A stretch of DNA of 64,000 bases. It comes from Microbacterium sp. NC79. GTDB taxonomy: Bacteria; Actinomycetota; Actinomycetes; Actinomycetales; Microbacteriaceae. This document shows, in pieces, positions 54,432 to 63,815 of the stretch. Below the pieces are notes generated by a model. It worked only from the letters and a program-made list of their open reading frames with translations. It was not told where the DNA came from and did not search any database. Where the stretch lies: assembly GCF_019061125.1 (NCBI RefSeq), contig NZ_JAHQYI010000001.1, positions 1,426,001 to 1,490,000 of the forward strand. Direction: 5' to 3'. Position numbers and translations under genes: made by a program. Each line of letters begins with the position of its first letter. Positions within the stretch are counted from its first letter, which is position 1.

Positions 54432-54980
54432 CTACTCGGTCTTCGGCCACGCGTCAGCGACGGCCTGGCGGACCTCACCGAGAAGCTGCGGCAAAGCCTT
54501 GGTCTTGGCAATGATAGGGAAAAAGTTTGCGTCTGTTTCCCACCGCGGCACGATGTGCTGGTGTAGGTGCGCGGCAACGCCTGCGCCCGCCACTCGACCC
54601 TGGTTCATGCCCAGGTTGAAACCATCACAGTTCGAGACACCCCGAAGCACCCGCATCGCTGTCTGCGTGAGCGCGCCAATTTCCGCGACTTCCTCCGGCG
54701 TTGCCTCGTCGTACAGGCCGATGTGGCGGTACGGGCACACCAGCAGGTGTCCGGAGTTATACGGAAACAGATTCAGCAGCACGAAAGCGTGTGTACCGCG
54801 GTGCACGATGAGCCCGTGCTCATCACTCATATGCGGTGCGGCGCAGAACGGGCACTCGTCGACGAGGGGCTGTGGCCCCGCCTGGATGTACGCCATCCGG
54901 TGCGGGGTCCACAGCCGCTGAAACTCATCAGGAACACCAGCGAGGTGCGCGGCCGAGGTGAGTTCAGCGTCGTTTGTCAT
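54432..54980 (-). CDS. HIT family nucleotide hydrolase/phosphorylase
   Basis: A 182-residue histidine-triad protein with HLHQHIV (His138, His140, His142) and an N-terminal CPFC zinc pair (Cys43, Cys46). It resembles the actinobacterial Ap4A-phosphorylase-like group encoded after thrS. Substrate is not settled by sequence. Overlaps thrS by four bases. Confidence 0.93.
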
Positions 54981-56977
54981 GCGAAATCTGCCTCGTTCAG
55001 CACGACGCGGTGATCCGCGATTGCACGCTTAATCAGCTCGACGGCCTCAGCGATCGGCACACCGTTGCGCGTGGAGCCATCACGGAAACGGAACGATACG
55101 GTTCCGGCTTCTTGATCCTGGGCGCCGGCGATGAGGATCAGCGGAACCTTGGACGTGGTGTGGTTGCGGATCTTCTTCTGCATGCGCTCATCGCTGCGGT
55201 CAAGCTCAGCACGAACGCCGGCTGCGCGCAGCTGCGTGATGATGTCGCCAAGGTAGGGCGCAAAGTCATCAGCGACAGGAACACCGACGACCTGCGACGG
55301 TGCCAGCCACAGCGGGAAGTCGCCAGCGTAGTGCTCAAGCAGAATTGCGAAGAAACGCTCAACCGAGCCAAGCAACGCGCGGTGAATCATCACTGGGCGG
55401 TGCTTGGCGCCGTCGGGGCCGGTGTATTCGAGTTCGAAACGCTCCGGCTGGTTGAAGTCCAGCTGGATCGTCGACATCTGCCACGTACGACCGATGGCGT
55501 CACGCGCCTGTACCGAAATCTTCGGGCCGTAGAATGCTGCTCCGCCGAGGTCGTCAACCAGCTCGAGACCGGATTCGACTGCGACCTCACGCAACGTCTC
55601 AATCGCCGTGGTCCACTGCTCAGGCTCGCCGAGGAACTTCGGGTTGCCGACTTCGTTCGTCGACAGCTCAAGGTAGAAGTCATTCAGGCCGTAGTCACGC
55701 AGCAACTCAAGCACGAGGTTGAGGTTCGTGGTGAGTTCTTCGCGCACCTGGTCTTGCGTCACGTAAATGTGCGCGTCGTCCTGGGTCAAGCCGCGCACGC
55801 GCGTCAGACCCGATAGCGTGCCGCTCTTTTCGTAGCGGTACACGGTTCCGAACTCCGCGAGACGCAACGGCAGTTCACGGTAGCTGCGTCCGCGTGAGCG
55901 GAAGATCAGGTTGTGGAACGGGCAGTTCATCGGCTTCAGGTAGTAGTCCTGGCCCTGACGCGTGATGTTGCCCTCATCGTCAACGACCTCATCGAGGTGC
56001 ATCGGGGGGAACATGCCGTCTGCGTAGGTCTGCAGGTGACCGGAGGTCTGGAACAGATCCTTCTTCGTGATGTGCGGAGAGTTGACCACGTCGTAGCCGT
56101 TGCGCAGCAGGTGGCGGCGCAGGTTCTCTTCGATCTCGTAGCGGATGATGCCGCCCTTGGGGTGGAAGACCGCGAGGCCGGAACCAATTTCGTCTGGGAA
56201 CGAGAACAGGTCCATCTCGACACCGAGCTTGCGGTGGTCGCGACGCTCGGCCTCAGCCAAGCGCTCCTGGTATGCACGCAATTCGTCCTTCGACGGCCAC
56301 GCGGTTCCGTAGATGCGCTGCAGCTGCGGGTTCTTCTCCGAACCGCGCCAGTACGCAGCAGCGACGCGCGTCAGCGCCCAGCCGTTGCCAGCCATGCGGG
56401 TGCTCGGCACGTGCGGGCCGCGGCACAGGTCTTTCCACGCGGTCTCACCGTTGCGGGTGACGTTGTCGTAAATCGTGAGTTCGCCTTCGCCAACCTCAAC
56501 GCTTGCACCTTCAGCGGCTTCTGCTCCCCCGCCCTTCAGGCCGATGAGTTCCAGCTTGAACGGCTCGTTCGCGAGTTCGGCGCGCGCCTCATCGTCGGTC
56601 ACGACGCGGCGCACGAAACGCTGGCCGTCACGAACGATGGACTGCATTTCCTTCGTGATCGCCTTCAAGTCTTCAGGCGTGAAGGGGGTGTCGACCTGGA
56701 AGTCGTAGTAGAAGCCATCGATAATGGGCGGCCCAATGCCGAGGTTCGACTGCGGACGCAGGCGCTGCACGGCTTGCGCCATGATGTGCGCAGTGGAGTG
56801 ACGGAGAATGGCGAGGCCGTCGGCGCTGTCGATCGTAATCGGCTCGACAGTGTCATCGGCAGTGACCTGCGTTGCAAGGTCTTTCTGCGCGCCGTTTACG
56901 CGCATGGCGATAACCGACTTGTCGGAAAAGAGTGCAAAACCGTCGCAAGGAAAGGACGGCTGGGTGTTCTCGGTCAC
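54977..56977 (-). CDS. thrS: Threonyl-tRNA synthetase
   Basis: Charges tRNA-Thr. The start is a GTG giving [14 protein letters not shown] (666 residues), chosen for the GGAG site seven bases upstream; the open frame extends further but is not family-like. A TGS-like N-terminus, the editing domain ([14 protein letters not shown]) and the class II core with [20 protein letters not shown] and the anticodon-binding C-terminus are present. Complete. Confidence 0.97.
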
Positions 56978-57084
56978 AGAGTTCTCCAGATAGGCGATGA
57001 ATCTAGGGTACCGCGCACGGGCACTCACCCTTTTCACTCTGCACATTCAGCGAATATCGAGCCGGAATTTGTGGTGTGCGCAGG

Positions 57085-57135: not shown

Positions 57136-58143
57136 ATGAATGTTGCGCACGCCGCACCCACCGAGCAGGAGATGGCAGCCGCCGCCAAGGTTCTGACGGT
57201 GATTTCGGATACCTACTCCGCGAAAATGGTGGGCCAAGAACGTCTGCGCACGAGCCTGCTTATCGCGCTCATCGCCGATGGTCACATTCTGCTTGAGTCT
57301 GTGCCTGGCCTGGCAAAGACGACAGCGGCAAGCACCCTGGCCGCGACAGTGCAAGCGCAATTCAAGCGCATTCAGTGCACGCCGGATCTCCTCCCCAGCG
57401 ACATCACAGGCAACCAGATTTACGACAACAGCACCGGCTCGTTCCGCACCGTGCTGGGCCCCGTGCACGCAAACTTTGTTTTGCTCGACGAGATCAACCG
57501 TTCAAGCGCCAAGACGCAGAGCGCGATGCTCGAGGCCATGCAGGAGCACCAGACCACCATCGGTGGCGAGATCTACCCGCTTCCGGAACCATTCCTGGTG
57601 ATTGCGACGCAAAACCCCATTGAGCAGGAGGGCACGTATGAGCTGCCAGAAGCGCAAATGGACCGCTTCCTGCTGAAGGAAATTGTGGAGTACCCGAGCC
57701 CGAATGAGGAACTTGAGGTGCTCAACCGCATCGACTCCGGCGTACTGGGGCGCGGTTCCGAAGGCCACGTTGCTCACGTGGTGTCCCTCGATGACGTGAA
57801 GATGCTGCAGGATGTCGCGAGCCGCATTTATGTGGACCCTGCGGTACGCAACTACATCGTGTCGCTTGTTTACGTGACGCGAAACCCGGCCCCCTACATT
57901 GGCGAAGAGAAGGCGCGCTTCTTGAAGTACGGTGCCAGCCCCCGCGCTTCGATTGCCTTCCTGCAGGCCGCCCGCGCATACGCGCTCCTCAGCGGTCGCT
58001 CCTACGTGGTTCCGGAAGACGTTCGTTCCCTCAGGCACGTCGTACTGCGCCACCGCGTGCTGCTCACGTTTGAAGCCCAAGCGGAGAACATCCGCAGCGA
58101 AGAGATCATCGACGCGATCTTTGCCGCTGTGCCGACCCCGTAA
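57136..58143 (+). CDS. MoxR family AAA+ ATPase
   Basis: A 335-residue AAA+ protein with Walker A SVPGLAKTTAAS, Walker B VLLDEINRSSAKTQSAML, ATQNPIEQEGTYELPEAQ and the sensor/arginine-finger region DRFLLKEIV. MoxR ATPases act as chaperones with VWA-domain partners. It heads a seven-gene operon whose next genes encode DUF58 and VWA proteins. Ribosome-binding site GAGGGG is seven bases upstream. Confidence 0.95.
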   Translation: MNVAHAAPTEQEMAAAAKVLTVISDTYSAKMVGQERLRTSLLIALIADGHILLESVPGLAKTTAASTLAATVQAQFKRIQCTPDLLPSDITGNQIYDNSTGSFRTVLGPVHANFVLLDEINRSSAKTQSAMLEAMQEHQTTIGGEIYPLPEPFLVIATQNPIEQEGTYELPEAQMDRFLLKEIVEYPSPNEELEVLNRIDSGVLGRGSEGHVAHVVSLDDVKMLQDVASRIYVDPAVRNYIVSLVYVTRNPAPYIGEEKARFLKYGASPRASIAFLQAARAYALLSGRSYVVPEDVRSLRHVVLRHRVLLTFEAQAENIRSEEIIDAIFAAVPTP

Positions 58144-58148
58144 CGGCC

Positions 58149-59036
58149 ATGCCCAGCCTTATTACGCAGGTGAAGAGCAAGCTCTTCATCACGTCTGCGC
58201 GCCGTTCGATGCACCCGCTCGACGGCGCCTACGCTTCGCTGATGCGCGGCCGCGGATCTGACTTTGAAGATCTCCGCGAGTATCAGGTCGGCGACCAGGT
58301 ACGCGACATTGATTGGCGCGCATCGGCACGTCACAACGAGATTCTCGTCAAGCGGATGCGCGCTGACCGCATGCACACCGTCCTGTTCGTTGTCGACACC
58401 GGGGCCACGATGGCCGCCCTCGCCGAAAACGAAGAACCCAAATACGAACTCGCGCTTCTCACAGCGGGGGTGCTCGGATACCTCACGGTGTCGCACGGTG
58501 ACGACATCGGTCTGGTGTACGGCGACAGCGAGAAAGTAAAGCGCCGCGCGAGCGGCCGCACTGAATCGGCGCTGGAAAGCGCTCTGCGCACCATTCAAAC
58601 TGCCACCAGCCAAGCATCCGCTGCAGGCAACATCAACAAGCTGCTGGAGTACGTGGCTGCCACCATCTCCCGCCGCATGATCCTCGTCATCATCACCGAT
58701 GAAGCGCCGATCACCGATCGCACCGATCAGCTCATCCGTCGTCTTCGTGTGCAGCACGACATGCTGTGGGTGACCGTTACCGACGCCAACCCGGTTCTGG
58801 CAGAAAAAAGTCAGGCTGCCCGCAGTGACGTCGTGACCGGGTGGGGTGTTCCCGAGTTTGTGCACGGAGACGCGACCCTCCGCGAGGCGGTGATCGCGGA
58901 AGAAAGACGTGACGAAGAGGAACGTCGAGCAATGCTCGAAAAGTACGCCATCAGCCACGTGACGATTCGCGATAGCAGCGAAGCCGTTGGCGACATCCTG
59001 CGCATGCTGGATCGGAGGGATCGTGCAAGGTCCTGA
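58149..59036 (+). CDS. DUF58 domain protein
   Basis: A 295-residue protein with the DUF58 core GRGSDFEDLREYQVGDQV followed by RDIDWRASARHNE. A VWA-like fold follows, but the metal-site motif is VVDTGATM rather than DxSxS, so metal binding may be lost. DUF58 genes follow moxR in many bacteria. No membrane helices are obvious, unlike the longer membrane-bound forms. Confidence 0.92.
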   Translation: MPSLITQVKSKLFITSARRSMHPLDGAYASLMRGRGSDFEDLREYQVGDQVRDIDWRASARHNEILVKRMRADRMHTVLFVVDTGATMAALAENEEPKYELALLTAGVLGYLTVSHGDDIGLVYGDSEKVKRRASGRTESALESALRTIQTATSQASAAGNINKLLEYVAATISRRMILVIITDEAPITDRTDQLIRRLRVQHDMLWVTVTDANPVLAEKSQAARSDVVTGWGVPEFVHGDATLREAVIAEERRDEEERRAMLEKYAISHVTIRDSSEAVGDILRMLDRRDRARS

Positions 59037-59508
59037 CGAGTTCTATCCGCCATATCAATATGGCTGGGGCTGGCTGGCCCTCGCCATCGGTCTCATTGCG
59101 CTCGTTCTGGTTGCCTGGGCACTCGTGCTGTGGTTTACCCGCATGCAGAAGCCGCCCAAAGAGACGACTCAGCCCCATGTTCCGGTGACCACAGACGTGC
59201 TGACGCAGCTGCGGTACGAGTATGCAGCGCGCATCGATCAGATCGAGCACGCCTACACCGAAGGTGCTCTTGCGCCCAAGGCCGCAAACCGTCAGCTGAG
59301 CGCCGCGGTGCGCGCGTTCGTCAACGAGTACTCCGGTTTGGAAGCGCCTGTCCTGTCGCTGACCGATCTCCAAGAGCTCGGCGTCCATCCGGCACTTATT
59401 GACGCGCTGCAGCGCCACTATTACCCCAGCATCTTCCGCAAAGACATGGTCATCGATCCGGTTGCCGGCGCCAACGCTGCTCGAGCGGTGGTGTCATCGT
59501 GGTACTAG
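59023..59508 (+). CDS. Small single-span membrane protein of the MoxR operon (DUF4381-like)
   Basis: A 161-residue protein starting at GTG with GGAGG seven bases upstream, overlapping the DUF58 gene by 14 bases. It has one membrane helix (about 16-39) and a soluble domain with LRYEYAARIDQIEHAYTEG and LGVHPALIDALQRHYYPSIF. The layout is like DUF4381 proteins of MoxR/Bat loci; similarity is only by position and layout. Confidence 0.75.
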   Translation: MQGPDEFYPPYQYGWGWLALAIGLIALVLVAWALVLWFTRMQKPPKETTQPHVPVTTDVLTQLRYEYAARIDQIEHAYTEGALAPKAANRQLSAAVRAFVNEYSGLEAPVLSLTDLQELGVHPALIDALQRHYYPSIFRKDMVIDPVAGANAARAVVSSWY

Positions 59509-60485
59509 ATTTCGCTTTTGTGCCCTGGGTCATGCTCGGAGTCATCGTGCTGGTCGTCGGCGGTGGAATTGTGCTCGGAGTGGCGCGCGCGCGGCGACAC
59601 CGCGCGGGTACAGGTGCACCACTCGCCCGTGCCGAGCGGCTCCGCGGCCTTCCGAGTTTCGCCCGCGCCATCAAACGGCGACGTATTGCGCTCGCGGCAG
59701 CGCTGACGCTCGGAATTGTCGCAATGGGTGTCGGCGGAATTGCCGCAGCGCGCCCGATGGCGGCGCAAACGATTCAGCCAGTGAACACAAGCCGTGACAT
59801 CATGCTGTGCCTCGACGTCTCCGGTTCCATGGCTGAGGTCGACATGGAAATCCTGGACACTTTCCTCGAACTGGTCGACGACTTTGAGGGCGAACGCATC
59901 GGACTCACCATCTTCAACGCTTCACCCGTGCAGGTGTTTCCGCTCACCGATGACTACGAGTTCGTGAAAGCGCATCTCAAGTCTTTGCGTGACAGCTTCG
60001 ACAGCTGGGATGTGATGCCGGAGTACTGGGTCGGCACCATGAATGGCGCTGGTTCTTCCCTCATTGGCGACGGCCTCACCGCGTGTGCGATGCGGTTCGA
60101 CCATGAAGACGAAGAGCGAAGCCGGTCCATCATTTTTGCCAGCGACAATGAAGAACTCGGGGACAGCATCGTGACGCTTCCTGAAGCGGCAGCGTACGCC
60201 ACGTCCAAGGGTGTGCGGATCTTCGCCATCAACCCGGTGGCCGGTGCCAGTACGCTCCTCACTGAAGAGATGCGGGAGGCCGCCGCATCGACGGGTGGCG
60301 AGATGTATGAGCTGCGCGGAACCACGACGGTCGGCGACATCGTTGAGAAGGTGCAGGAAGAAGATGCCTCCGCGCTCCAGGGTGATGTGCAGATCGTCTG
60401 GACCGATGATCCCAACCTCTGGATCACGCTCCTGGCTGGTCTTGCCGTCGCTTTCCTTCTCGTGCTGTGGCGGGTGAGGCTATGA
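59499..60485 (+). CDS. VWA-domain membrane protein, first copy (BatA-like)
   Basis: A 328-residue protein with two N-terminal membrane helices (about 8-28 and 62-84), a VWA domain with an intact MIDAS motif DVSGSMAEVD (Asp106, Ser108, Ser110) and a C-terminal helix (about 305-325), the BatA layout. It faces out of the cytoplasm. GTG start overlaps the previous gene by ten bases. Confidence 0.9.
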   Translation: MVLDFAFVPWVMLGVIVLVVGGGIVLGVARARRHRAGTGAPLARAERLRGLPSFARAIKRRRIALAAALTLGIVAMGVGGIAAARPMAAQTIQPVNTSRDIMLCLDVSGSMAEVDMEILDTFLELVDDFEGERIGLTIFNASPVQVFPLTDDYEFVKAHLKSLRDSFDSWDVMPEYWVGTMNGAGSSLIGDGLTACAMRFDHEDEERSRSIIFASDNEELGDSIVTLPEAAAYATSKGVRIFAINPVAGASTLLTEEMREAAASTGGEMYELRGTTTVGDIVEKVQEEDASALQGDVQIVWTDDPNLWITLLAGLAVAFLLVLWRVRL

Positions 60486-61510
60486 CTTTCCAACCCGTCA
60501 TCACTCCCGTCCTTCTGGTGTTGCTGTTCGCGCCGCTCGTCTTTATCGTCGTTCGCGCCCTCATCACCGCGAAGTCGCATCGGCAGCGTGGCCTGTGGGG
60601 CACGCGTGCGCTCCTGGTCGCACTGTGCTTCGTGATGCTGTTGCGCCCCGGAATCACCGGCACCCCCACCCAGACAGTCACCACCAACACCGACATTTTC
60701 CTTGTTGTTGACACCACGGCGTCGATCGTGGCTGAGGACTGGGGTGATGCGGAACCACGCATCAATGGCATCAGGGAAGACATCGCAGAGCTGGTCACCC
60801 AATACGCTGGCGCCCGGTTCTCCCTCATCACATTCGCGAGCGCTGCAGAAATCCGGTTGCCGCTCACAACAGATTCCAGTGCGGTGATGTCATCGCTTGC
60901 GGTGATGCGACCCGAGACCACCAGCGTGAGCCGTGGTTCCGACATTGGCGCCGCCGCAGCCACTCTCGAGCGAGTCTTGACAACTGCGGCCGAATCGGCC
61001 GACGACCGCTCACGCATGGTGTTCTATTTCGGCGACGGGGAACAGACCTCAAGCCGTACCCCGAAGTCGTTCGCCGCGTCGCGCGAACTGACCGACGGCG
61101 GCGCGGTATTCGGATACGGAACCGCCCAGGGCGGCCCCATGAAGGTCACCAGCGGTTACGCAACCGACTCCCCCGATGATTCCTATATCGAGTACGACGG
61201 TGAAGTTGCCCTCTCCGTGATCGATGACGAGAATCTGCAGACGATCGCAGATGATCTCGGCCTCACCCTGCAGCTGCGCGTGGCAGGCACCGCAGCGGAC
61301 TTCCCTCCTGCACCGACATCGTCCATGACGCTGACGAACTCAGAAACCGCAGGCGGTGTGTCCGACCTCTCCTGGATTCTCGCGATCGCCGTATCTGCTC
61401 TGATCGCTTGGGAACTGTTGCGGGCGACCATGCTGACTACTCAGCTGCGCGGGTTGAAAGCGACAGCCGATGCACAGCAGCGTGCAGATGACGAATGGAG
61501 CCGCGCATGA
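60482..61510 (+). CDS. VWA-domain membrane protein, second copy (BatB-like)
   Basis: A 342-residue protein starting at the ATG that overlaps the preceding stop (ATGA). Two N-terminal helices (about 6-28 and 40-56) lead to a VWA domain with MIDAS DTTASIVAED (Asp77, Thr79, Ser81), a Thr-variant seen in other actinobacterial VWA proteins. A C-terminal helix lies at about 288-308. Together with the first VWA gene it suggests a paired membrane complex. Confidence 0.88.
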   Translation: MTFQPVITPVLLVLLFAPLVFIVVRALITAKSHRQRGLWGTRALLVALCFVMLLRPGITGTPTQTVTTNTDIFLVVDTTASIVAEDWGDAEPRINGIREDIAELVTQYAGARFSLITFASAAEIRLPLTTDSSAVMSSLAVMRPETTSVSRGSDIGAAAATLERVLTTAAESADDRSRMVFYFGDGEQTSSRTPKSFAASRELTDGGAVFGYGTAQGGPMKVTSGYATDSPDDSYIEYDGEVALSVIDDENLQTIADDLGLTLQLRVAGTAADFPPAPTSSMTLTNSETAGGVSDLSWILAIAVSALIAWELLRATMLTTQLRGLKATADAQQRADDEWSRA

Positions 61511-62334
61511 CGCTTGTCGACGATGACGTGGCTGAGCCGTCCGTTCCTGAAGAGCAGCGTGCTGCCGCATCGATCTTGGAAGGCAATCGCCGGCGCCGCA
61601 GGATTCGCAAATGGATCGGGCTCGGCAGTATTCCCGTTCTGCTGGTCGTGGTGCTCCTGCTCGTGAAGATCTTTAGTATGTACGCCGCCGCCCATATGGC
61701 TATTGCATCGTTCATCACGGGCGATGGTTCCGGCACGTCACGAGCCGCGCAGTGGCAATACCCGGTAAACATCTTCGAGCCGTTCAAAGCGCCGTTTAAC
61801 AACGCGGTTGGCCTCGCCGCAAATGCGCAATATGCTCCGGCGCGCGCAGAGTTTGAGAAGGCGCTTGATCTGGTGACGGGTCTGGAGGAATGCGCTGTTC
61901 GCATCAACCTCTCGATCACGATCGAAAGATTGGGAGATCTGAAAGACCAGGCGGGAGACGCGTACGCCGCGAAGAAGCTCTACGACGAAGCCCTGCTCAA
62001 TCTGCTGAGCGGCCCGAAAGACTGTGACGACGAAGAGAAGTCGAAGCAGAACTCGAGCGATCCCCAGCGCGACATGAACGCACAGCGGGAACAAATGGAA
62101 CAGCGCCTGCAAGACAAGCAGGAACAGCAAAAGCAGAAGCAAGAAGGCCCCGAGGGCGAGCAACCGCAGCAGCCCGACCCTGGCACAGGCGAACAGGAAA
62201 CCGACCAAGGGCCAGGTCAAGAGCAGCTCGACGAAATTGAGCAGCGGCTTGGCCAGGGTGAGCGCGACCGCGATGACATGGGCCGCGACGAAGACGACCC
62301 GTGGAACGATTACGAAACGGACAAGCCATGGTGA
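61507..62334 (+). CDS. Membrane protein with TPR-like segment and Gln/Glu-rich tail (BatC-like)
   Basis: A 275-residue protein with a basic N-terminus, one membrane helix (about 36-57), a helical region (about 98-155) with a TPR-like pattern (YAPARAEFEKALDLV, LYDEALLNLL) and a long hydrophilic tail (160-275) rich in Gln, Glu and Lys. A TPR protein in this position is typical of BatC in Bat operons, but similarity is low and the assignment is by layout. ATGA overlap with the preceding gene. Confidence 0.75.
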   Translation: MTLVDDDVAEPSVPEEQRAAASILEGNRRRRRIRKWIGLGSIPVLLVVVLLLVKIFSMYAAAHMAIASFITGDGSGTSRAAQWQYPVNIFEPFKAPFNNAVGLAANAQYAPARAEFEKALDLVTGLEECAVRINLSITIERLGDLKDQAGDAYAAKKLYDEALLNLLSGPKDCDDEEKSKQNSSDPQRDMNAQREQMEQRLQDKQEQQKQKQEGPEGEQPQQPDPGTGEQETDQGPGQEQLDEIEQRLGQGERDRDDMGRDEDDPWNDYETDKPW

Positions 62335-63422
62335 TTCCCGGCGAGGCGACCTCGAACCGGTATGTCGCCAACAGCGACGGCGCTCCCCCGGTGCCACCAC
62401 CCGGTGGTTACCGCGGTGCCCAGCGCAACCGCACGCCACAACTGCCACCCGGTGCTCCCACGCCGCCTCGTGGTTCCGCTGATGCAAAGAAAAAGCGAGT
62501 GTGGATGGGACGCGCGGCGCTCATCGTCGCTATCGCTTTCGCCATCATGCTGCTCATTGTGTGGAACGTTGGCGGAAGCCACACCCTTTACGGCTTTAAC
62601 ATGCTTGCCGTGCAGATCGCCGTGCTGGCGTTTATCCTTGTCGCTCTCTTTACCCCTGGTGCCCGGAAGTGGGCCTCAGGTGCGCTCGCTCTCAGCCTCT
62701 TGATGAACGTCGCGACGGTCGGTGCGGCTGGGGCCGTCACGAGCGCGTACACCGGCAATTACGAGAACCTCAAGAGCGACGAGCAGAAGTTCTGGGAGAA
62801 GTACCCGGGCATCAAAGACCAGGAGCCTGTCTACCTGATCGGCGCATCCAGCGTTGAGGAGTACAAGGCGGACGCCGACGAGCTTCTTCTCAGCGTGCGA
62901 GAACGCCTCACAACGGACTTCGGGTTCACCTGGACAGACCCCACAGATGACATGCGCCGCCCCATCCGCAATGGTTATGGCGGGGAATCGTGGTTCTTCA
63001 CGTACACGAGTGAAAAGTGGATGACGAATGAGGCTGTGCATGGTGTCTCCGATAAGACCGCTGTGGTGAACAGCATCAATAGCGTGGTGGACGAGTTCGG
63101 GTATGACGAGCTGTACTCGCTGACGCAACCCGGGTACCGCGATGACAAGGTGCTGGAACAGCTCTATGGTTCCGCCGAACCGACAGAACAGGTGATCTGG
63201 GAGTTCTATACGGGCGACTATGACGCCAACTTCACGCTGTATGTGCAGATCGTTGACTTGAGCATGGACAACGCAGACGGCACCTTCCGCAAGGATCGCG
63301 AAGACTGGAACAAGCGCAGCGGCGAACCGCTGGAGGGCGTCAACATCTATGTCGTCACCGGGCCCACCATCAGCGAGGCAGATGAAGCCGCATTCGACGA
63401 GCTTCTCGACGACTACAAATAG
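62328..63422 (+). CDS. Three-helix membrane protein with unknown outer domain
   Basis: A 364-residue protein of no recognised family. Residues 1-55 are Pro/Gly-rich and cytoplasmic, then three helices (about 60-80, 90-109 and 116-138) and a soluble acidic domain (140-364) with aromatic-rich stretches such as GESWFFTYTSEKWM and VIWEFYTGDYDANF. The ATG overlaps the stop of the previous gene; upstream GTG at 62301 or GTG at 62331 are possible. It is the last gene of the MoxR operon and precedes a strong terminator. Confidence 0.75.
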   Translation: MVIPGEATSNRYVANSDGAPPVPPPGGYRGAQRNRTPQLPPGAPTPPRGSADAKKKRVWMGRAALIVAIAFAIMLLIVWNVGGSHTLYGFNMLAVQIAVLAFILVALFTPGARKWASGALALSLLMNVATVGAAGAVTSAYTGNYENLKSDEQKFWEKYPGIKDQEPVYLIGASSVEEYKADADELLLSVRERLTTDFGFTWTDPTDDMRRPIRNGYGGESWFFTYTSEKWMTNEAVHGVSDKTAVVNSINSVVDEFGYDELYSLTQPGYRDDKVLEQLYGSAEPTEQVIWEFYTGDYDANFTLYVQIVDLSMDNADGTFRKDREDWNKRSGEPLEGVNIYVVTGPTISEADEAAFDELLDDYK

Positions 63423-63460
63423 ACGCGAAAAGGCCCCGATTTCTCGGGGCCTTTTCGCGT
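63423..63460. terminator. Bidirectional terminator after the MoxR operon
   Basis: A perfect 17-bp inverted repeat (ACGCGAAAAGGCCCCGA with its complement) and a 4-base loop, with T-rich parts on both sides of the stem. It ends the plus-strand operon and can also serve the tRNA operon coming from the right. Confidence 0.9.
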
Positions 63461-63535
63461 GGAGCGGATGACGAGACTCGAACTCGCGACCCTAACCTTG
63501 GCAAGGTTATGCGCTACCAACTGCGCTACATCCGC
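63460..63535 (-). tRNA. tRNA-Gly (anticodon GCC), copy 1
   Basis: The minus strand folds as a cloverleaf: acceptor GCGGATG with CATCCGC, D-loop AGTTGGTAG, anticodon loop TTGCCAA and T-arm GTTCGAGTC. The 3' CCA is encoded and lies at the edge of the terminator stem. Body of 73 bases identical to copy 2. Confidence 0.95.
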
Positions 63536-63696: not shown

Positions 63697-63742
63697 AAAT
63701 AGAAAGAAAACCCCGGGTTCCCCGCAGGGATCCTCTAACTCG

Positions 63743-63815
63743 AGCGGATGACGAGACTCGAACTCGCGACCCTAACCTTGGCAAGGTTATGCGCTACCAA
63801 CTGCGCTACATCCGC
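63743..63815 (-). tRNA. tRNA-Gly (anticodon GCC), copy 2
   Basis: Identical over its 73 bases to copy 1, but without an encoded CCA (CG follows the discriminator). It is the first gene of the tRNA cluster in transcription order. Confidence 0.95.

Follow-up and report, generated by a model that had tools for sequence, protein, structure and literature searches.

A conserved six-gene, Bat-like MoxR-VWA cassette in Microbacterium and the terminal tryptophan of its BatC-like protein

Seven genes fill positions 57136-63422 of a 64,000-nucleotide stretch of Microbacterium sp. NC79 (the window; contig NZ_JAHQYI010000001.1, positions 1,426,001 to 1,490,000; host genome of 2.86 Mb, 99% complete), and the question they raise is whether all of them encode one membrane machine and of which kind that machine is. 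In the open reading frames of the window all seven lie on the plus strand and are here called g1 to g7 in their order. A first-pass annotation had read the whole run as one machine, possibly serving a complex of the cell envelope, and had described the last two genes as uncharacterized. Comparison of sequences indicates that g1 to g6 probably encode a conserved machine of the membrane, akin to the Bat chaperone operons known from other phyla, that g7 is probably a lineage-specific add-on, and that the g6 protein ends in a tryptophan kept in most cassettes.

In order to define the unit, 120 genomes of the family were surveyed, g5 being found in 33 and g6 in 32. All 32 genomes with g6 also had g5, and 32 of the 33 with g5 had g6, the sole exception being a marginal match on a contig of 3.9 kb (L082) that was excluded from the 31 family loci analyzed besides the window. 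The order g2 to g6 was fixed in all 31 and g1 was also present in 30, one locus (L070) having no detectable g1. The 14-base overlap of g2 with g3 and the 10-base overlap of g3 with g4 each recurred in 25 of the 31 loci, where gene starts were scripted as the codon nearest the upstream stop, a choice that favours overlaps. Since order and overlaps are conserved across the family loci, the six-gene set is not the product of chance. The distribution of the cassette is patchy, with no match in 87 of the 120 family genomes nor, within the genus, in 7 of the 12 genomes listed. For the wider order the g6 profile matched 103 of 248 genomes and for the class the g5 profile matched 86 of 394, both counts including weak matches and the latter many VWA proteins that are possibly unrelated. 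From these 103 and 86 positive genomes 40 loci were hand-picked for spread over families (L154-L193; one genome contributed both L172 and L193). The genes g1 to g6 stand in the same order in 39 of them, five with g4 and g5 fused, and the fortieth (L175), which is cut off by a contig end and begins within the set, has the same fusion. The single g4-g5 reading frame was found in six loci from three families, and BatB and BatC form one reading frame in 2 of 17 Bacteroidota loci with BatC, results suggesting that the products of these operon neighbours, fused in some lineages, are physical partners. Plasmid searches returned one 87-base MoxR match and five records with a g5 relative, two of which were read. 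The six-gene set is present on two mycobacterial plasmids (L092, 5476-12451; L093, 2834-10763), an IS110-family gene separating g5 from g6 in the former and an IS607-family gene lying within g4 in the latter.

A single functional unit of seven genes with g7 obligatory would explain the 7-base overlap of g7 with g6, seen in the window and in the four relatives having g7 at that place. However, only 5 of the 32 cassettes (the window and 4 of the 31 others) have g7 next to g6, the remaining 27 having none there, and in one genome (G019) a full-length g7 lies on another contig. Moreover, the g7 profile matched 23 of the 120 family genomes, 12 of which have no cassette match (9 of the 12 found through the outer domain and 3, marginally, through the membrane part). 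On this co-occurrence the seven-gene unit was rejected, and we consider it highly improbable; the first-pass claim of one machine stands for g1 to g6 and falls for g7. That annotation had named as evidence against itself a rarity of the last two genes in the company of moxR, and such rarity was found for g7 only. The distribution is consistent with g7 being a later accessory of the Microbacterium lineage outside the core, its closest named relatives among the matches listed being from Microbacterium sp. YY-03 (84%) and M. mitrae (83%). The outer domain of g7, earlier described as unknown, is probably LppA-like, its predicted model resembling the M. tuberculosis lipoprotein LppA (2v7s) over 163 of 169 residues. 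The likeness is in the predicted fold, whereas the anchor differs in consisting of three transmembrane segments. The Pfam family LppA (PF16708) did not reach g7 and weakly reached 2 of 7 solo relatives, a Foldseek search with g7 gave nothing below E 0.36, and comparison with profiles of the Protein Data Bank gave only coiled-coil and DnaJ entries that were judged spurious. No function of LppA was found in the titles and abstract starts of open-licence PMC literature among the matches listed. The g7 outer domain recurs in proteins dispersed over the family (L083-L090, L045, L049, L050), several of them with a lipoprotein-like start, and LppA itself is confined to pathogenic Mycobacterium according to its Pfam description. 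Assignment of g7 as BatD was also rejected, g7 having no BatD match and the genome no BatD.

The identity of the core proteins was examined with family profiles. The g1 protein is a MoxR ATPase with AAA_3 (E 6.9e-60, 201.1 bits) and AAA_lid_2 (75.7 bits) both above the curated Pfam cut-off, and it matches the solved relative 2r44 (E 1.8e-87). It is one of four MoxR matches in the host genome; the protein ends in proline in the window and in all 30 of the other family loci having g1. The g2 protein passes the cut-off for DUF58 (PF01882, E 5.2e-29) and has no hydrophobic segment; a DUF58 search of solved structures gave no match. The VWA_2 domain of g4 passes the cut-off (E 8.4e-9), and the NCBIfam model BatA_Lepto is matched with E 2.2e-9, far below the cut-off of that model. 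The VWA domain of g5 also passes the Pfam cut-off, the g5 profile matches the solved BatB 3ibs (E 7.4e-13), and in the window both g4 and g5 have the DxSxS-T-D residues of a metal-ion-dependent adhesion site (MIDAS). No match above cut-off in Pfam or NCBIfam was found for g3, g6 or g7. Below the cut-off, DUF4381 (PF14316) scored 18.0 bits against the required 27.2 in g3 and was detected at E<=0.1 in 12 of 32 members of the g3 alignment (best 4.8e-6), and the g3 family aligned with 11 proteins from the DUF4381 position (hhalign, 58%). Although the g6 protein of the window has no TPR match of its own, 24 of the 32 aligned g6 sequences match TPR_2 at E<=0.1. The g6 family aligned with the TPR part of BatB-BatC fusions (hhalign, 96.4%) and g5 with the same fusions (99.3%). 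The g6 protein can thus be assigned as BatC-like by its family profile, not by the window sequence alone. The domain matches of g1, g2, g4 and g5 with the TPR family profile of g6 bear out the first-pass description of a MoxR, DUF58, double-VWA and TPR membrane unit, and its call of g6 as BatC-like is likewise supported. The search for Bat-family homologues that it proposed yielded the BatB kinship of g5 and the BatC kinship of g6, a protein that is therefore not undescribed in kind. Among the matches listed, g6 and g7 are mostly annotated as hypothetical.

The Bat (Bacteroides aerotolerance) operon has the order MoxR-DUF58-x-BatA-BatB-BatC-BatD-BatE. The core of the window follows this order from MoxR and DUF58 through a third protein and two VWA proteins to a TPR protein, and it is further linked with the Bat operon by the kinship of g5 and g6 and by a terminal K-x-W. 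The third protein differs, having 330-346 residues in the three Bacteroidota loci that reach it, whereas g3 has 161 and is DUF4381-like. The genes of operons in Persicobacter, Rhizobium and Legionella adelaidensis follow the same order, the third being annotated as DUF4381 and the last being BatD, and in Legionella adelaidensis the TPR gene is separate. Such DUF4381/BatD-type operons resemble the cassette in gene order and in the third gene, but they end in BatD and their TPR proteins have tails that are mostly DPxxFLxxKF-like and usually without a terminal tryptophan. The MoxR-DUF58-DUF4381-VWA-BatD operons of Persicobacter and Rhizobium (L091, L195, L278) lie near arylsulfatase genes, with a gene for a formylglycine-generating enzyme also nearby in Rhizobium. 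The mycobacterial moxR1-DUF58-VWA operon has MoxR, DUF58 and a membrane VWA protein in common with the cassette and differs, in the portion of the report available, in having one VWA gene and no mention of a TPR gene (PMC12067865).

The C-terminus of g6 was compared in 74 cassettes, comprising the window, the 31 family loci, the 40 hand-picked loci and the two plasmids. Tryptophan is the last residue in 67 of the 74, representing 12 families, mostly as K/R/Q-P-W-stop and in 32 as KPW. Elsewhere in this region tryptophan is rare (10 of 6633 residues in the 99 positions before the terminal one), the stretch from the TPR part to the end being a low-complexity, hypervariable linker of variable length. 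All 120 of the g6 homologues among the matches listed (of 127) end in tryptophan. For Bacteroidota, 20 stretches were hand-picked by BatA-sized reading frames from 85 positive of 99 genomes; of 23 loci, 6 had no readable batB or batC downstream, and the BatC proteins of the other 17 all end in [KR][DN]W. All 120 BatB-BatC fusions among the matches listed (of 2641) end in KDW. A cysteine pair 38-50 residues apart is present in g6 of 67 of the 74 cassettes and two cysteines are invariant in 32 family sequences, results that fit a disulphide outside the cell. Neither the terminal tryptophan nor the six-gene set was found in the titles and abstract starts of open-licence PMC literature among the matches listed. 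The terminal tryptophan of g6 thus appears to be a new observation, and its wide conservation points to a possible docking mechanism.

The location of the tail was estimated from hydropathy and charge. More Lys and Arg residues precede than follow the membrane segment of g6 in 31 of 31 family loci, which places the tail outside, and the VWA domains of g4 and g5 in the window are predicted on the same side. The seven cassettes in which g6 has no terminal tryptophan, all of mycobacterial type, comprise the two mycobacterial plasmids and five loci that belong to a single family of the class. The MoxR proteins of these five loci and of the M. avium plasmid are 69-96% identical to one another, and they share 56-58% identity with that of the other plasmid. 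The DxSxS of g4 is present in 67 of 67 cassettes with the tryptophan versus 0 of 6 assessable cassettes without it, L093 with its g4 interrupted by IS607-family genes being left out of this count. The g5 site fails the strict five-residue test in 6 of the 7 cassettes without the tryptophan, and both sites pass it in 62 of the 67 with it. The association of tryptophan and MIDAS gave 6e-9 in Fisher's test, with related loci treated as independent.

The reading that we favour, and hold to be reasonably probable, is that g1 to g6 encode a membrane-spanning actinobacterial Bat-like MoxR machine in which the outer g4-g5-g6 part remodels a client in the envelope and the g6 tail docks on the VWA pair, with g7 a later accessory. 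MoxR and DUF58 would act inside the cell, g3 and the membrane segments would relay ATP-driven motion across the membrane, and the outer complex of g4, g5 and g6 would hold and remodel a client in the envelope, either one protein or a complex. Through its flexible linker g6 would bring its C-terminal K-x-W end to a docking site on the VWA pair, and tail binding would gate the state of the machine or the access of the client. A tail and a MIDAS that are predicted on the same side of the membrane and have disappeared from the same cassettes are most simply explained by such docking. The carboxylate of the terminal tryptophan possibly sits on the MIDAS metal. A bolder proposal, which we regard as speculative and rather unlikely, is that the free alpha-carboxylate of the terminal tryptophan of BatC and g6 is the sixth ligand of the VWA MIDAS metal, forming a tethered self-plug displaced by MoxR ATP hydrolysis or by the client; it would be an ancient switch of Actinobacteria and Bacteroidota that was lost with MIDAS in the mycobacterial-type cassette. 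The role at the envelope supposed in the first-pass annotation is likely.

Several results weigh against the favoured reading. A single mycobacterial-type clade accounts for the covariation of tryptophan and MIDAS, which therefore amounts to about one evolutionary event and could also have arisen if the entire outer part had lost its function. Among the DUF4381/BatD-type operons from other phyla, a terminal tryptophan was found in only 4 of the 20 loci that could be assessed, two of the four being close relatives, and several of the 16 loci without it keep DxSxS. This set comprised 23 loci, with L204, L205 and L235 left out for having no complete operon readable, and VWA and TPR are fused in 18 of the 20 kept and separate in 2; from a set of 80 loci, 19 were read. 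The profiles of actinobacterial g3 and g6 do not reach their counterparts in Persicobacter. For a BatB-BatC fusion that occurs naturally, the AlphaFold model gives residues 573-576 a predicted local distance difference test score below 50 and does not place the tail, and the coupling through g3 is purely inferred. In the host genome, BatD (PF13584) and the BatA domain PF07584 each gave 0 matches (positive in 2 and 4, respectively, of 14 control genomes), for which reason the cassette is named Bat-like and not a Bat operon proper. Reports from other bacteria diverge in the portions available: in Riemerella, a batA mutant had lower resistance to oxidative stress and survival of heat was linked to the moxR level (PMC11834572), but Leptospira biflexa deprived of all its bat genes had no phenotype in growth, shape or oxidative stress (PMC3557215). 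The role of Bat operons elsewhere is thus disputed between species.

The terminal tryptophan could instead mark g6 for degradation or quality control, as a ligand that an HtrA-like envelope protease recognizes through its PDZ domain, and make no contact within the machine. PDZ domains recognize C-termini that are free and end in a hydrophobic residue, and HtrA-like envelope proteases act on the outer side, where the tail is predicted. We consider this unlikely, the joint loss of tryptophan and MIDAS residues in mycobacterial-type loci being an outcome that a separate protease would not predict. The precedent of NorQ and NorD invites another explanation, namely that the machine is a dedicated chaperone inserting a metal or cofactor and not a general envelope remodeller. 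In the available portions of two reports, iron is inserted by a MoxR ring together with a VWA protein that has a MIDAS, the target is said to give the MIDAS metal its sixth ligand, and NorD without its last two residues no longer co-purified with NorQ (PMC13036017, PMC9976466). The cassette is alike in pairing a MoxR ATPase with a MIDAS VWA partner; it differs in having two membrane VWA proteins, DUF58, g3 and a TPR protein in place of the one VWA partner. A dedicated insertion role is nevertheless doubtful. No shared client gene was seen beside the cassette, though neighbours were not systematically annotated, and the close neighbour in 18 of the 31 family loci is a class II tRNA-synthetase-like gene. 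Furthermore, the NorD-type VWA protein inserts into the NorQ ring, as stated in the available part of PMC13036017, whereas the MIDAS domains here are predicted outside, away from the cytoplasmic ring.

Coordinates of the features, with the start codon nearest the upstream stop chosen for each gene, are as follows.

Table 1. Coordinates within the window of the seven genes and associated features.
Feature	Positions	Strand	Description
g1	57136-58143	+	MoxR AAA+ ATPase, 335 aa, cytoplasmic
g2	58149-59036	+	DUF58 protein, 295 aa, cytoplasmic
g3	59023-59508	+	DUF4381-like membrane protein, 161 aa; predicted N-out with globular part inside
g4	59499-60485	+	VWA protein at BatA position, 328 aa, three transmembrane segments; VWA predicted outside; MIDAS DVSGS intact
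g5	60482-61510	+	BatB-like VWA protein, 342 aa, three transmembrane segments; VWA predicted outside; MIDAS DTTAS intact
g6	61507-62334	+	BatC-like TPR protein, 275 aa, one transmembrane segment; C-terminal part predicted outside; ends TDKPW-stop
Last five g6 residues, TDKPW	62317-62331	+	codons of the C-terminal residues
g7	62328-63422	+	protein with three transmembrane segments and probable LppA-like outer domain, 364 aa; probable accessory, outside core
Hairpin terminator	63423-63460	not assigned	17-pair stem

The plus-strand genes mostly overlap, as noted at first pass, five of the six junctions being overlaps (14, 10, 4, 4 and 7 bases from g2/g3 to g6/g7) and g1 and g2 being separated by 5 bases. 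The frame of a divergent spacer and a terminator was also recovered, with thrS at 54977-57046 on the minus strand leaving a spacer of 89 bases, in which a sigma-70 scan found no site. The scan lists the downstream hairpin on the minus strand, and a plus-strand reading also shows TTTT after the GC stem. The stretch that follows opens with a tRNA-Gly gene at 63460. Directly past the terminator, on the minus strand, tRNA-Val and tRNA-Cys lie between two tRNA-Gly(gcc) genes (63460-63535 and 63742-63815) that score equally in Rfam. The synthetase-like gene that stands close after g6 in other family loci (for example L058, L062 and L073) was proline--tRNA ligase in 3 of 3 tested, the neighbour in the window being instead the divergent thrS.

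The molecular task of Bat operons is still debated, as mutants of one species had defects under stress while those of another had no phenotype. An ending that two phyla conserve, while the rest of the tail varies, offers one residue to delete and defined binding partners to test. For the Actinobacteria, the results would add a defined MoxR-VWA machine in which the core is separated from a lineage-specific accessory.

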